From Sphaerotilus natans (lineage in GTDB: Bacteria; Pseudomonadota; Gammaproteobacteria; Burkholderiales; Burkholderiaceae_C), in NCBI RefSeq assembly GCF_900156335.1, contig NZ_FTMZ01000014.1:1-64000 (forward strand): 64,000 bases of DNA, read 5' to 3'. Both the position numbers and the translations under genes were made by a program. Positions 3,519 through 9,703 of the stretch are shown piece after piece. Below the pieces are notes generated by a model. That model was not told the origin of the DNA and made no database searches. It worked only from the letters and a program-made list of their open reading frames with translations. Position 1 is the first letter of the stretch; the number at the start of each line of letters is the position of its first letter.

Positions 3519-3842
3519 ATGTCCTTTTCCCATGCCGAGACCCACGATCCTGCCATCGAGCTGGCCGATGCCGGCACGGCACTGTTCACGCTGACAGCCC
3601 AGTCCGTCCAGATGGTCGAGATGCTGCGGGACCACATGGCTCAATACGATGAGGTACCAGGTGCCGGCCTGATGTCGCTCGACGACTACCTGGACTGGAC
3701 ACAGCGGACCGTCGAGAACTGGATGACCTTCCAGGCGTCCTGCTCGCGGGGCATGAGCAGCTGCCTCGATCTCGTGATGGAGCCCTGGCTCCATCCGCAG
3801 ACCGAAAGAGAGACCGGTCCGCATTCCAGCGGCCAGACTTGA
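3519..3842 (+). CDS. Hypothetical protein between DUF1840 and mgtA
   Basis: 107 aa from the ATG at 3519 (MSFSHAETHDPAIEL), chosen because AGGAG lies eight bases upstream; an in-frame ATG at 3429 would overlap the preceding gene and add a basic, low-complexity leader. The product is acidic and helical, with LTAQSVQMVEMLRDHM and DDYLDWTQRTVENWMTF. It has no signal peptide or membrane segment. The size and amphipathic helices recall phasin-like or helical-bundle proteins, but I cannot assign a family. Its stop overlaps a possible TTG start of the ATPase by four bases, suggesting co-translation. Confidence 0.55.
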   Translation: MSFSHAETHDPAIELADAGTALFTLTAQSVQMVEMLRDHMAQYDEVPGAGLMSLDDYLDWTQRTVENWMTFQASCSRGMSSCLDLVMEPWLHPQTERETGPHSSGQT

Positions 3843-3910
3843 CGATCCGCAGGCACCCTGCTTCCAAGGCCCGCCCGGGCCTGACGCAGCGACTCGGACG
3901 CCGGGGCCGC

Positions 3911-6589
3911 ATGCACTTCCGCCGCAAGCCACTGCTCGACGTCCTGGTGTCCCGGACTGGCGGCAGCCAACCCGGCGACCGGCCTGGAATCGTCACGGCC
4001 GATCTGGCCTGGGCCGCCTGCCACCGGCCGGACGAGGTGCTGGCCGTTCTGGAGTCCGGCCCCCAGGGGCTAGATGCTGCGCAGGTCCGGGCTCGGCAGG
4101 ACCGCGATGGCCCCAACGACATCGGTCACGAGGCCCCTGTGCCGATCTGGATGCGACTGTGGCACGGCTATCTCAATCCTTTCAACCTGCTGCTGACAGT
4201 GCTGGCGCTCCTGTCATGGCTGGGCATGGATCTTGAAGCGACCCTCGTGATCGGCACCATGGTGGCACTGAGCACGCTCGTCCGGTTCGTCCAGGAAGAG
4301 CGCTCGCACCGGTCGGCAGGGGCCTTGCAGGCCCTGGTGAGCACCACCGCGACCGTGATGCGCGAGCCGGTGACACGGTGGCAGGAGATTGCTCAGCGCG
4401 ATCTGGTCGCTGGTGACCGGATCGCACTGGCAGCCGGCGACATGGTTCCGGCCGACGCGCGTCTGCTCGATGCCCGCGATCTGTTCTTGTCCGAGTCAGC
4501 GCTGACTGGCGAGGCTCTGCCCGTCGAGAAATTCGTGGCGCCCGGCCCGGCCGGCACGCCCGCGCTGGCGCAGCGCAATCTCGTCTTCATGGGAACCAAT
4601 GTGGTCTCGGGCACGGCAACGGCCGTGGTGGTGTGCACCGGAGAGCGCAGCTGGTTCGGAGCGCTGGCCGCGAGCACGCTGGACACCGAGGTGCAGCCAG
4701 GCACCTTCCTGGCCGGGGTGAACAGCGTGAGCTGGATGCTGATCCGCTTCGCGATGACGATGGCGCCCCTCGTGTTCCTGATCAGCGGCCTGACACGCCA
4801 CGACTGGCTGGAGGCCTTCCTGTTCTCGCTGTCGGTGGCCGTGGGGCTGACGCCGGAGATGCTGCCGATGATCGTCACCTCCACGCTGGCGCGGGGGGCA
4901 GTCCGGCTGGCCCGCCGCAAGGTGGTGGTCAAGCGGCTCGACGCGATCCAGAACTTCGGCGCCATGGATGTCCTGTGCACCGACAAGACCGGCACCCTCA
5001 CGCAGGATCGGATTGCGCTGTCACGCCACACAGACGCTTTCGGCACACCTTCGGAGGCGGTGCTTGGCCTGGCCGCGCTCAACAGCCGTTTCCAGACCGG
5101 GCTGAAGAACCTGCTCGATCGCGCGGTGCTCGAGCATGTCGACCTGGGTGGAGGCGATCAGCAGGGGGCCGAGCTTGCCCGCAAGATCGACGAGATTCCT
5201 TTCGACTTCCAGCGGCGACGCATGTCGGTGCTGGTCGCGCAGCCCGGCGATGGCCTGCCAGACCGCCATGAGCTGATCTGCAAGGGGGCGGTCGAGGAGG
5301 TGCTGACCGTCTGCGACCGGGTCCGCATGAGCGTGCATGACGGCGGTGGCGAGCGGCGGCTGGACGCAGAGCTGCTCGCGCGTACGCTGGCATGCACAGG
5401 CGCGCTCAACCGCGAGGGGCTGCGGGTGGTGGCGGTGGCGGTCAGGACGCTGCCGCCGTCCCGGCTCGACTGCACGGTGGCCGACGAAGCAGGCCTGACG
5501 CTGGTCGGCTACATCGGATTCCTCGACCCGCCCAGGGACTCGGCCGCTCCGGCGCTGCGCAGGCTGGCCGGGCACGGCATCCAGGTCAAGGTGCTGACCG
5601 GCGACAACGCGCTGGTGACCGAGGGCGTGTGCCGGCAGGTCGGGCTGCCGCCCGGGTCGATCCTGCTCGGCACGGACATCGAGGCGATGAGCGATGCCGA
5701 GCTGCAGGCCGAAGCCGCTCGGCACCATCTCTTCGCCAAGCTCGATCCGATGCACAAGCAGCGCATCGTGCGTGCGCTGCGGGCCGGCGGCCATGTGGTG
5801 GGCTTCCTCGGCGACGGCATCAACGACGCGCCGGCACTGCGGGCAGCCGACATCGGCATCTCGGTCGATTCGGCAGTGGACATCGCGCGCGAAGCCGCGG
5901 ACATCATCCTGCTGGAGAAGAGCCTGCTGGTGCTCGACGACGGCGTGATCGAGGGCCGCACCACCTTCTGCAACATGCTCAAGTACATCCGCATGACCAC
6001 CAGCTCCAGCTTCGGCAACGTCCTGAGCGTGCTGCTGGCCAGCGCCTTCCTGCCCTTCCTGCCCATGCTGCCGCTTCAGCTGCTGGTACAGAACCTGATG
6101 TATGACATCAGCCAGACCGCTCTGCCCTTCGACCGGGTCGACGACGACCTGCTGGAGCGCCCACTGGCCTGGAATCCGTCTGGCATCGGTCGCTTCATGC
6201 TGTGCTTCGGGCCGGTCAGCTCGGTGTTCGACCTGGCCACCTTCGCGCTGATGTGGTGGGTGTTCGGAGCAGACGATCCGACGCGACAGAGCCTGTTCCA
6301 GAGCGGCTGGTTCGTCGCAGGTCTGCTCACGCAGACGCTGGTGGTGCACCTGCTGCGCACGCCCAGGATTCCCTTCGTCCAGAGCCGGGCGTCGGCAACG
6401 CTGCTGGCCATGACCGCTGCCATCGTGGTGGCGGGCGTGTGGCTGCCGATGGGCCCGCTGGCCTCGCATTTCAGGCTGCAGGCGCTGCCCGCGGCCTACT
6501 TCGGCTGGCTGGGGCTGATCCTGCTGGGCTACGGCATGCTCGCCACACTGGTGAAGAGGATCTACATCCGGCGGTTCGGCTGGCAGTGA
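3911..6589 (+). CDS. mgtA: Magnesium-translocating P-type ATPase (MgtA/MgtB type)
   Basis: 892 aa from the ATG at 3911, which matches the family's N-terminal length; a TTG at 3839 overlapping the upstream stop would give 916 aa. All P-type ATPase elements are present in order: actuator loop LTGE (about 198-201), the M4 motif GLTPEMLPMIV, the phosphorylation site DKTGTLT (D358), KGAVEEVL in the nucleotide domain, VLTGDN, and GDGINDAPALR (about 634). PEMLP and the C-terminal QLLVQNLMYDISQ are typical of the MgtA branch, which imports Mg2+ down its gradient at the cost of ATP in the inner membrane. No mgtC or leader-type riboswitch is visible upstream. The last 28 bases overlap the convergent Crp/Fnr gene. 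Confidence 0.92.
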   Translation: MHFRRKPLLDVLVSRTGGSQPGDRPGIVTADLAWAACHRPDEVLAVLESGPQGLDAAQVRARQDRDGPNDIGHEAPVPIWMRLWHGYLNPFNLLLTVLALLSWLGMDLEATLVIGTMVALSTLVRFVQEERSHRSAGALQALVSTTATVMREPVTRWQEIAQRDLVAGDRIALAAGDMVPADARLLDARDLFLSESALTGEALPVEKFVAPGPAGTPALAQRNLVFMGTNVVSGTATAVVVCTGERSWFGALAASTLDTEVQPGTFLAGVNSVSWMLIRFAMTMAPLVFLISGLTRHDWLEAFLFSLSVAVGLTPEMLPMIVTSTLARGAVRLARRKVVVKRLDAIQNFGAMDVLCTDKTGTLTQDRIALSRHTDAFGTPSEAVLGLAALNSRFQTGLKNLLDRAVLEHVDLGGGDQQGAELARKIDEIPFDFQRRRMSVLVAQPGDGLPDRHELICKGAVEEVLTVCDRVRMSVHDGGGERRLDAELLARTLACTGALNREGLRVVAVAVRTLPPSRLDCTVADEAGLTLVGYIGFLDPPRDSAAPALRRLAGHGIQVKVLTGDNALVTEGVCRQVGLPPGSILLGTDIEAMSDAELQAEAARHHLFAKLDPMHKQRIVRALRAGGHVVGFLGDGINDAPALRAADIGISVDSAVDIAREAADIILLEKSLLVLDDGVIEGRTTFCNMLKYIRMTTSSSFGNVLSVLLASAFLPFLPMLPLQLLVQNLMYDISQTALPFDRVDDDLLERPLAWNPSGIGRFMLCFGPVSSVFDLATFALMWWVFGADDPTRQSLFQSGWFVAGLLTQTLVVHLLRTPRIPFVQSRASATLLAMTAAIVVAGVWLPMGPLASHFRLQALPAAYFGWLGLILLGYGMLATLVKRIYIRRFGWQ

Positions 6590-7293
6590 GTACCCCGGTC
6601 ATCCAGGCCTTCCCCCATCACATCGGCAAGGATCCGGCGCTGCCCGGCATAACACGCGCAGGCCTTGGCCTCCAGGCGCGCACGGTCCAGGACAGTGATC
6701 GTCCCGCGGTGGCAGTGGATCAGGCCATCGCGCTGCAGTTCGCCGATCGCCAGGGTCACCCCGACGCGACGCAGACCGAGCATGCTGGCCAGGAAGGCGT
6801 GAGTGAACTGCAGCTGGTCATCACTCGCCCGGTCGTGGCTCATCAGCAGCCAGCGCGCCAGGCGCGGCCCGAGCAGATGTTCGTGAATGCAGGCGGCGGT
6901 CAACGCCTGCTGCGCCAGCAGCACGTAGACATGGCGCAGCACCTGCCGGCGCAGCACACCGCTGCGCTGCAGTTCCCGGCGGAAGACCGCGGCCGGCGCA
7001 CGGTACGCCAGGCCTTGACCCTGGATCAGCGCCTGCCAGGGCGATGCGCCCACGCCCAGCGCCCACTGCCCGCCAAGCAGGCCCTCACGGCCCACCATGC
7101 CCACCTCCAGCCCGCGCGGGCCCCCGGTGCGCGTGATCAGCGAGATGAAGCCGCTGCTCGGGAAATATACATGGCCGGCAGGATCTCCGGCTTCGCACAG
7201 CACCTCGGACGGCCGCAGCACGAACTCGTCGCAGACCCCGAGCATCCGGTCGCGATCGGGCTGAGGCAAGGCGGCCAGCAACTGGTTCGACAT
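6562..7293 (-). CDS. Crp/Fnr-family transcription regulator (second copy)
   Basis: 243 aa. The N-terminal sensory beta-roll (VCDEFVLRPSEVLCEAGDPAGHVYFPSSGFISLITRTGG, GLEVGMVGREGLLGG) and the C-terminal winged helix (THAFLASMLGLRRVGVTLAIGELQRDGLIHCHRGTITVLDR) parallel the gene at 1973-2695, and both end in a cysteine-containing tail (KACACYAGQRR here). The cNMP phosphate-binding arginine pattern is not evident, so the effector is unknown. It starts 172 bases away from, and divergent to, the A-domain-less P-type ATPase, making that gene a candidate target. Its 3' end runs 28 bases into mgtA. Confidence 0.83.
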   Translation of the reverse strand: MSNQLLAALPQPDRDRMLGVCDEFVLRPSEVLCEAGDPAGHVYFPSSGFISLITRTGGPRGLEVGMVGREGLLGGQWALGVGASPWQALIQGQGLAYRAPAAVFRRELQRSGVLRRQVLRHVYVLLAQQALTAACIHEHLLGPRLARWLLMSHDRASDDQLQFTHAFLASMLGLRRVGVTLAIGELQRDGLIHCHRGTITVLDRARLEAKACACYAGQRRILADVMGEGLDDRGTHCQPNRRM

Positions 7294-7465
7294 GAAGGTC
7301 AGGGCCTGGGGCGGACAGGAGCGGCGGGCCGCGACAGGCGCGGTACCCCGCCAGTCTGCCCGCGCGCACGCCGATCCACTGTCTGCCAGCGCACAGACCG
7401 GTCCGCCGGACGGCCTGATCGTCCGGAACGAGCCGGGGTATCCGTACCGGACAAGGAGGCATGCG

Positions 7466-9703
7466 ATGGTTCCAGGGATTCAATCCGATTCAGGCCTGTC
7501 GTCCGAGCAGGCCGCGCAGGCCCTGGCGGCGCAGGGGCCCAACACGCTGCCGGACACGACGCACCGCGCCTGGTGGTCGACGCTGGCGGAGATCCTGCGC
7601 GAGCCGATGTTCCTGCTGGTCCTCGCGGCCGGGCTGCTCTACCTCGGCTTCGGCGACCGGCGCGACGGCCTGACTCTGCTGGTGTTCGTGCTGGTCACCC
7701 TCGGCATGACCTTGTACCAGCAGGGCCGCACGACACGGGCCATCGAGGCGCTGCACGCCCTGACCGTGCCGCAGGCACGGGTGGTGCGCACGCTGGCCTG
7801 GATGGCCCTGGGGCTCAGCGCGGTCATGGTGCTGCTGCACGGCCTGCTGCGCGGAGACTGGCTCCAGGCCTTGCTGGCCGGCGTTGCGCTGGCCATGGCC
7901 ATGCTGCCCGAGGAATACGCGGTGGTGCGGACCGTCTTCCCCGCCCTTGGCGCTCACCGGTTGTCGAAGGAAGGCGTGCTGACGCGGAGCATCCCAGCCA
8001 TCGAGACGCTCGGTTCGATCACGGTGCTGTGCAGCGACAAGACGGGCACGCTGACGGAAAACCGCATGACGGTGGCGCATCTGGTCGCCGGCCCGCAGCT
8101 GCAGGAGCGGATCGACCTGCCCGCGCTGGTCGGCCAGATGCGCCTGCCCGCGCCCTTCCTGCCGCTGCTGGAAAGTGCCCTGCTGGCCAGCGTGGCGGAA
8201 CCTTTCGATCCGATGGAGCAGGCGATCCACCGGCTGGGGCGGTGTGTCCTGTCCGGCCCGGACCTGGCGCATCCGGGCTGGCGCCTGGTGCAGGTCTACG
8301 CGCTCAGCCCGGCGCTGCGCGCCCTGTCGCAGGCCTGGACCGTGCCTGGGCAGGAGAAGCAGAGGGTGGTCACCAAGGGGGCGCCTGAAGCGGTGATCGA
8401 TCTGTGCCACCTCGATGCACAGCGCAGACGCCAGGTCGAGGCGCTCGTCGACGAGATGGCCGCGCGCGGACTGCGCGTGCTGGCGGTCGCCCGTGGCTCC
8501 TTCTCAGGCCGACGCTGGCCGGCCTGCGCGCATGATCTCGACTTCGACTTTCTGGGGTTGCTGGGCCTGTCCGATCCGGTCCGCGCGGAGGTGCCGGGCG
8601 CGGTGGCCGAGTGTCGGGCCGCCGGCATCCGCGTGATCATGATCACCGGCGACCATCCCGTCACCGCACGGGCGGTCGCGCAGGCTGCCGGGCTGGAGCT
8701 GCCCGCCGGCTGCCCGGACGCTCTGCTGTCGGGACATGAACTCGCGGCCCTGGACGACGAGGCCCTGCGCCAGCGGATGGCCACGGTGCGCGTGTGCTCG
8801 CGCATCGCGCCCGAACAGAAGCTGCGCATCGTGCAGGCGCTGCAGGCGCGCGGGGAGATCGTCGCGATGACCGGGGACGGCGTGAATGATGCGCCAGCGC
8901 TGCGGGCCGCGCATGTCGGCGTGGCCATGGGCAGGAGGGGCACCGATGTGGCGCGGCAGGCCGCCGCGCTGGTGCTGGTCGATGACGACTTCGCCGCCAT
9001 CGTGCGGGCGATCCGCGCGGGCCGGCGCATCTTCGACAACCTCGGTCGGGCGATGGCCTACACCCTGGCGGTGCATGTGCCGATCGCCGGCATGGCGCTG
9101 CTGCCGGTGCTGGTCGGCTGGCCGGTGCTGCTGCAGCCGATGCACATCGCGCTGCTCGAGCTGGTCATCAATCCGGCCTGCTCGGTCGCGTTCGAGAACG
9201 AGCCGGCGGATCCGTCCGTCATGCGCCGGCCGCCGCGCGATGTGTCCGCCCCGCTCCTCGCGCGCGGCATGCTGTGGCAGGCGGCATGGCAGGGGCTGGG
9301 CGTGCTCGCGGTGGTCATGGCGGGCTTTGCGTGGATTTTGCCGCTGCGCCCGGAGTCCGAGGCGCGGGCCTTTGCCTTCGCCATCCTGGTGAGCGCCAAT
9401 CTGGCGCTCATCCTGTCGAGCCGCTCCGCCGTCGATCCCCTGCCCGTCACGCTGCGCATCCCGAATCGGAACCTCTGGATCATCGTGATCCTGGCCTTCG
9501 TGCTGCTGCTGTGTGCCCTTCAGCAGCCTCTGATGGCCCATGTCATGCGGTTCTCCCCGCTGTCCGTGCAGGATCTGGCCTTGGCATGCAGCCTGGGTCT
9601 GCTGAGCGTGCTGTGGTTCGAGCTCGTCAAGGCCGCACGAGCTTGCCTGCATGCGCCCGCAAAGGCCCTCCGCGAAGGCACGCAGAGTGGAAAAGCGTGC
9701 TAG
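7466..9703 (+). CDS. P-type ATPase lacking the actuator domain
   Basis: 745 aa from the ATG at 7466, six bases after AAGGAGG. The N-terminus (GLSSEQAAQALAAQGPNTLP), M1-M2 (EPMFLLVLAAGLLYLGFGD; GLTLLVFVLVTLGMTLYQ), M3-M4 and the P and N domains match Ca2+-ATPase-like bacterial pumps: DKTGTLT with Asp191, KGAPEAV, MITGDHP, MTGDGVNDAPALR. After EALHALTVPQARVVRT (about residue 109) the sequence jumps straight to LAWMALGLSAV, the M3 region. The roughly 140-residue actuator domain with its TGES dephosphorylation loop is absent, and the reading frame is undisturbed. The M4 motif is LPEEYAVV instead of PEEFPVV, losing an ion-site proline. Family members have the aspartate near residue 330. Ion pumping is unlikely; autophosphorylation might persist. 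Confidence 0.88.
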   Translation: MVPGIQSDSGLSSEQAAQALAAQGPNTLPDTTHRAWWSTLAEILREPMFLLVLAAGLLYLGFGDRRDGLTLLVFVLVTLGMTLYQQGRTTRAIEALHALTVPQARVVRTLAWMALGLSAVMVLLHGLLRGDWLQALLAGVALAMAMLPEEYAVVRTVFPALGAHRLSKEGVLTRSIPAIETLGSITVLCSDKTGTLTENRMTVAHLVAGPQLQERIDLPALVGQMRLPAPFLPLLESALLASVAEPFDPMEQAIHRLGRCVLSGPDLAHPGWRLVQVYALSPALRALSQAWTVPGQEKQRVVTKGAPEAVIDLCHLDAQRRRQVEALVDEMAARGLRVLAVARGSFSGRRWPACAHDLDFDFLGLLGLSDPVRAEVPGAVAECRAAGIRVIMITGDHPVTARAVAQAAGLELPAGCPDALLSGHELAALDDEALRQRMATVRVCSRIAPEQKLRIVQALQARGEIVAMTGDGVNDAPALRAAHVGVAMGRRGTDVARQAAALVLVDDDFAAIVRAIRAGRRIFDNLGRAMAYTLAVHVPIAGMALLPVLVGWPVLLQPMHIALLELVINPACSVAFENEPADPSVMRRPPRDVSAPLLARGMLWQAAWQGLGVLAVVMAGFAWILPLRPESEARAFAFAILVSANLALILSSRSAVDPLPVTLRIPNRNLWIIVILAFVLLLCALQQPLMAHVMRFSPLSVQDLALACSLGLLSVLWFELVKAARACLHAPAKALREGTQSGKAC

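Follow-up and report, generated by a model that had tools for sequence, protein, structure and literature searches.

The ATPase locus and its intact counterpart

The window, i.e. the whole stretch of 64,000 nucleotides of Sphaerotilus natans DNA analysed here, carries a gene for a P2-type cation ATPase that has lost the core of its actuator (A) domain through an internal in-frame deletion. The features of the locus are as follows, with the congeneric genome used for comparison designated G010:

3839..6589, + strand: mgtA-type Mg2+ P-type ATPase gene, the upstream neighbour common to G010 (Pfam, TIGR, comparison with G010)
6562-7293, − strand: Crp/Fnr-type regulator gene between mgtA and the ATPase gene (HTH_Crp_2, cNMP_binding)
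7453..7459, + strand: Shine-Dalgarno sequence AAGGAGG, 6 nt 5′ of the ATG at 7466 (sequence reading)
7466..9703, + strand: P2-type cation ATPase gene, A-domain core removed by an internal in-frame deletion, 745 aa (Pfam, ORF, AlphaFold2 model)
7664..7720, + strand: hydrophobic core of M2, residues 67-85, N-terminal to the lost domain (hydropathy; model helix 65-99)
7782..7789, + strand: deletion junction with the single surviving copy of TGGTGCGC, 399 bp lost relative to G010 (comparison with G010)
7793..7849, + strand: hydrophobic core of M3, residues 110-128 (hydropathy; model helix 104-129)
7904..7927, + strand: M4 motif LPEEYAVV, residues 147-154, common to the intact sister gene (alignment, motif reading)
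8036..8050, + strand: DKTGT phosphorylation motif, Asp191 (motif reading)

The gene reads as 745 codons from the ATG at 7466, the mechanical open reading frame beginning upstream at 7292, and contains neither a stop nor a frameshift. The ribosome site pointed out in the initial annotation is present, in a leader similar to that of G010 from which the window differs by one base. At a Pfam threshold of E ≤ 0.001, the product matches Cation_ATPase_N, the HAD hydrolase domain and Cation_ATPase_C, and no match to E1-E2_ATPase (the A domain, PF00122) was observed; the adjoining MgtA displays all four Pfam domains, including E1-E2_ATPase. Across the whole genome, the A-domain model gives four matches above cut-off elsewhere, MgtA among them, and on the window ATPase it aligns only over model positions 117-180, corresponding to the M3/M4 end, with 21.9 bits for a cut-off of 28.1. 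The catalytic motifs are intact, as had been read from the sequence: DKTGT at residue 191, KGAPE at 304 and TGDGVND at 469. DKTGT and the TGDGVND hinge motif place the protein in the HAD-IC P-type ATPase superfamily, together with a TIGR01494 score of 213.5 bits (cut-off 62.3), but the actuator domain with its (T/S)GE loop, which also characterizes the superfamily, is missing. The scores with the P2A Ca2+ ATPase models fall below their cut-offs (TIGR01522, 339.1 for 798.3 bits; TIGR01116, 278.7 for 703.4 bits), both being reduced by the deletion itself.

An intact version of the gene, whose 883-residue product has a TGEA loop in the A domain, is found in G010 (C264:1811-4462, locus L106), so that the comparison with related genomes proposed at the outset could be made at the same locus. 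The two proteins are 87% identical over residues 1-111 and 89% over residues 102-745, on either side of the gap, and have the same M4 motif. The order on the G010 contig, the end of mgtA followed by the ATPase gene, is that of the window; however, only ~100 bp separate the two genes in G010, with no Crp/Fnr-type gene between them. The difference therefore reflects either an insertion of this gene in one lineage or its loss from the other. A relative with 40% identity lies at 2015-2668 (− strand) of the window. A close copy of the ATPase is present in two of the 13 genomes of the genus, the window genome and G010; in the other 11, two of which are <95% complete, the best match does not exceed 50% identity.

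The deletion, its repeats and the survey of homologues

The direct join of EALHALTVPQARVVR to TLAWMALGLSAV in the window ATPase is real. The in-frame loss of the A domain was thus correctly recognized from the open reading frame, but its size, first put at about 140 residues or 420 bases, is 133 residues and 399 bp in the alignment to G010. The G010 gene carries an 8-bp direct repeat, TGGTGCGC, with copies at L106:2127 and L106:2526, i.e. 399 bp apart; a single copy is left in the window, and the DNA after it corresponds to the sequence 3′ of the second G010 copy. The deletion with its two ends, and the repeats in the sister gene, are directly visible in this comparison, which displays the pattern of a short-homology (slippage) deletion: the undeleted relative has the repeat on either side of the segment, and one copy remains. 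Note that the repeat is inferred from the G010 sequence rather than from that of the true ancestor, and that the deletion is carried by one genome. In the G010 gene, a deletion of 300-499 bp placed at random has a junction homology of at least 8 bp at a frequency of 0.001. Since such a homology would arise about once in a thousand by chance, the TGGTGCGC repeat is very probably the cause of the deletion. A passage of PMC2884548 regards replication slippage as the likely source of small variable segments in bacterial genomes whose bounding repeats were mostly shorter than 30 bp; as in those segments, short direct repeats bound the lost segment and one remains, and the only notable difference from that excerpt is that the frame is kept in the window gene.

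We searched the window's own genome for the missing segment (371 bases queried) and found no close copy. The best match, 70% over 153 bases, sits in another ATPase gene, and as the matches are only weak, the segment has not simply moved.

To survey homologues, we started from 143 loci, of which nine were left out beforehand (L001-L005, L086, L087, L103 and L106, i.e. the window itself, own-genome ATPases and G010) and eight had no match at 1e-30 (L097, L098, L138-L143). The remaining 126 loci, 29-69% identical to the G010 protein, represent at most 124 distinct genes, L101, L136 and L137 being one own-genome gene. The presence of the A domain was scored by alignment coverage, because a TGE regular expression erred (e.g. 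on L056, L075, L102, L025 and L072). The A domain is kept in 125 of the 126, with at least 112 of the 133 deleted positions covered, and the remaining locus, L030, is cut by a contig end. It follows that the domain was lost in the window lineage and not gained by G010. As for a conserved family without the A domain, none of the 126 loci was found to lack the A domain alone (one not being assessable). Likewise, a 59-residue junction peptide searched at E ≤ 1e-12 against 399 genomes of the order gave, besides the window, two matches, both with an A domain.

In a sample of 399 genomes of the bacterial family, 108 had strong matches, and six short-looking open reading frames were fetched from them. 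Two related ATPase copies, L145 (G375:C2) and L147 (G235:C1), are split across two reading frames, which suggests either repeated loss of the pump or sequencing errors. L144 and L146 run off the ends of their contigs, and in L148 the A domain is read through in one frame. In the sixth, L149:2068-4476 (G379:C101, − strand), which stands outside the count of 126, M1, M2 and most of the A domain are absent and ~155 unrelated residues take their place in the 5′ part. This frame lies at the end of a 4.6-kb contig, and its similarity to an intact copy in G321 stops abruptly at 4011; a search of 12 other genomes of that genus did not find the replaced part, for which Pfam gives no match either. L149 is, from its sequence, probably a rearranged or chimeric contig end. 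A single close relative among the genomes of the genus, together with the split copies in G375 and G235, suggests that the ATPase gene is dispensable.

Selection, older changes and predicted structure

The pairwise dN/dS between the window gene and its G010 sister is 0.42 (dN 0.058, dS 0.139), or 0.38 with the termini trimmed, compared to 0.32 for the neighbouring mgtA (568 codons) and 0.33 for a similarly close pair (L107/L108). In a codon model of nine sequences and 706 codons, an omega common to the window and G010 branches is 0.163 versus 0.072 elsewhere (2ΔlnL 17.6), and separate omegas of 0.114 for the window and 0.43 for G010 fit no better than the shared value (2ΔlnL 1.5). Four other terminal branches fitted apart give 0.087. 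The visible relaxation (0.16 on the two sister branches versus 0.09 on the four others) is, on these estimates, common to the intact sister. Neutrality, with omega fixed at 1, is rejected on the terminal branch of the window (omega 0.11, 2ΔlnL 15.2); these omegas cover the whole window branch, and as the outgroups are distant and the deletion undated, they do not separate the selection that followed the deletion from that before it.

Conserved positions give a similar picture. The 17 other homologues all agree at 163 positions, of which 7 differ in the window gene and 6 in G010; of the 240 positions conserved in at least 90% of them, 20 differ in the window gene and 22 in G010. One of the counted differences, at residue 106, is in our reading an alignment effect of the repeat. 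When nine homologues were left out singly, they displayed 0-3 and 0-7 differences, respectively. Scoring the severity of 69 substitutions by profile gives a mean of −0.42 (t −1.38), a non-significant tendency to the disadvantage of the window gene, with values of +0.07 to +0.12 in three control pairs. Single changes that look severe are L155R (inside M4), R260C and L52V in the window gene, and G409A and D506E in G010. A mild relaxation, or else a shift of function, is suggested for the two sister genes alike and is at least as marked in the intact one; the dN/dS check proposed by the initial annotation discloses no selection pattern that would set the window gene apart. Because neutrality is rejected on its branch and the conserved-site counts are alike, the truncated gene did not drift freely along its entire branch; and since its decay is not significantly greater than that of its sister, the deletion is probably recent. 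The rejection of neutrality fits a recent deletion, yet constraint on the truncated protein would explain it too.

The changed M4 motif that had been noticed in the window gene is real, but its tie to the deletion does not stand. LPEEYAVV also occurs in G010, L130 and L133, and the latter two keep their A domain; the other seven loci nearest the G010 protein have PEEYPVV. As the motif is present in the intact sister, the change predates the deletion, and a link between it and the death of the pump is ruled out. Residue 569, which we place in M6, is an asparagine in both the window and G010 and an aspartate in at least 90% of the 17 homologues; with LPEEYAVV and N569 both shared by G010, residues near the ion site had already changed when the deletion occurred. 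Judging from these residues, the pump may already have been of another specificity or of less importance by then. At residue 498, Q replaces a conserved E in both genes, so that this change, like the one at 569, is older than the deletion.

The structure prediction that had been suggested for the truncated protein yields a confident model of what remains (AlphaFold2, 29 aligned sequences, mean pLDDT 88.8, pTM 0.86). M2 and M3 are now joined by a short loop, in which residues 99-102 have a pLDDT <50. In sequence, the solved structures closest to the protein are those of LMCA1 (lmo0841; E 3.2e-86), a Ca2+ ATPase of Listeria, and SPCA1, and the model superposes on LMCA1 in E1-Ca with Z 37.3 (676 residues aligned, rmsd 3.7). 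The remaining domains are thus predicted to be compatible with a P-type fold, which is no proof that the protein is produced. The canonical M4 motif of P2-type Ca2+ ATPases is PEGL. The window protein resembles this group (LMCA1, SPCA/PMR1, SERCA) in sequence and, as judged against LMCA1, in fold, but it differs in having PEEY in M4 and no A domain.

The A-M linkers of P-type ATPases provide the coupling between cytosolic domains and membrane helices, and in known pumps the A domain works inside its own chain through linkers to M1-M3. Passages of PMC11977196 name this coupling by the A-M linkers and describe the movement of the TGES loop of the A domain to the phosphorylated aspartate, whose hydrolysis it catalyses. 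As the initial annotation argued, normal dephosphorylation is not expected in a protein without the TGE loop, given the role of the loop in that excerpt. Phosphorylation by the P and N domains would still be conceivable here; coupled transport would not. Among the literature matches listed (open-licence texts, available in part), none describes a bacterial P-type ATPase that is truncated or devoid of the A domain.

Origin and fate of the truncated gene

We favour, with a probability of about 0.84, a loss of function: an accessory P2-type cation pump gene underwent one recent deletion of 399 bp through its 8-bp direct repeats. Slippage or short-homology recombination would have taken place between the two TGGTGCGC copies, one after M2 and the other just before M3. 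The ten helices of the product could still be inserted, and the product may retain ATP binding and phosphorylation on Asp191; with the A domain gone, however, phosphorylation would not be coupled to gating and dephosphorylation would not be efficient. The allele would thus be null or near-null as a pump, on its way to becoming a pseudogene.

The gene could instead be intact, with contig ends misjoined or the segment collapsed in the assembly, which we hold to be quite unlikely. The assembly is indeed a draft of 57 contigs, and the segment has 77% GC in G010, which can lower read coverage, but the gene is internal to a contig of 121.6 kb, the assembly contains no close remnant of the segment, and an 8-bp overlap would be too short for usual assemblers to merge. 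It is very unlikely that the protein has become a pump-dead pseudoenzyme, which binds ATP and/or the ion and stays phosphorylated on Asp191, either sensing or acting dominantly as the partner of another pump. The predicted folding of the remaining domains, the conservation of the catalytic motifs and a number of conserved-site changes no greater than in the intact sister are all compatible with such a role; the selection signal, however, is not separable from the time before the deletion, 125 of the 126 loci keep the A domain, and the architecture recurs in no other locus, the two other junction-peptide matches having the domain and L149 lacking M1 and M2 as well as most of it. We found no positive evidence for the pump-dead sensor of the initial annotation, the M4 change being older than the deletion. 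Slightly more doubtful still would be the specific case of an ATPase stably trapped in its phosphorylated form (Asp191) and reused in this species for sensing or to regulate the adjacent Mg2+ pump. That another P-type ATPase lends its A domain in a heterodimer is scarcely credible: MgtA, encoded upstream on the same strand, could provide one, but mgtA holds the same upstream position in G010 beside an intact ATPase, and known A domains act within their own chain.

For the loss-of-function deletion that we favour, the preserved reading frame would be a matter of ordinary likelihood. Of the exact direct repeats of at least 8 bp spaced by 60-1200 bp in the G010 gene, 165 of 234 (71%) are in frame, so that an in-frame outcome is the likely one, and the proposition that an in-frame deletion implies selection is ruled out. 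The description of the gene as a frozen relic kept in frame accordingly holds for its first half, the relic being what fits best; that it was kept in frame is shown neither by these repeats nor by the selection pattern, which is not distinct from that of the intact sister. The event is an ordinary one and its biological weight small, but a natural A-domain deletion that keeps the transmembrane, P and N domains could be a ready-made object for biochemical tests. More generally, many direct repeats in frame are available in a gene of high GC content and biased codon usage, so that a clean domain loss can be due to chance; we explain the register of these repeats by the GC-rich codon usage.
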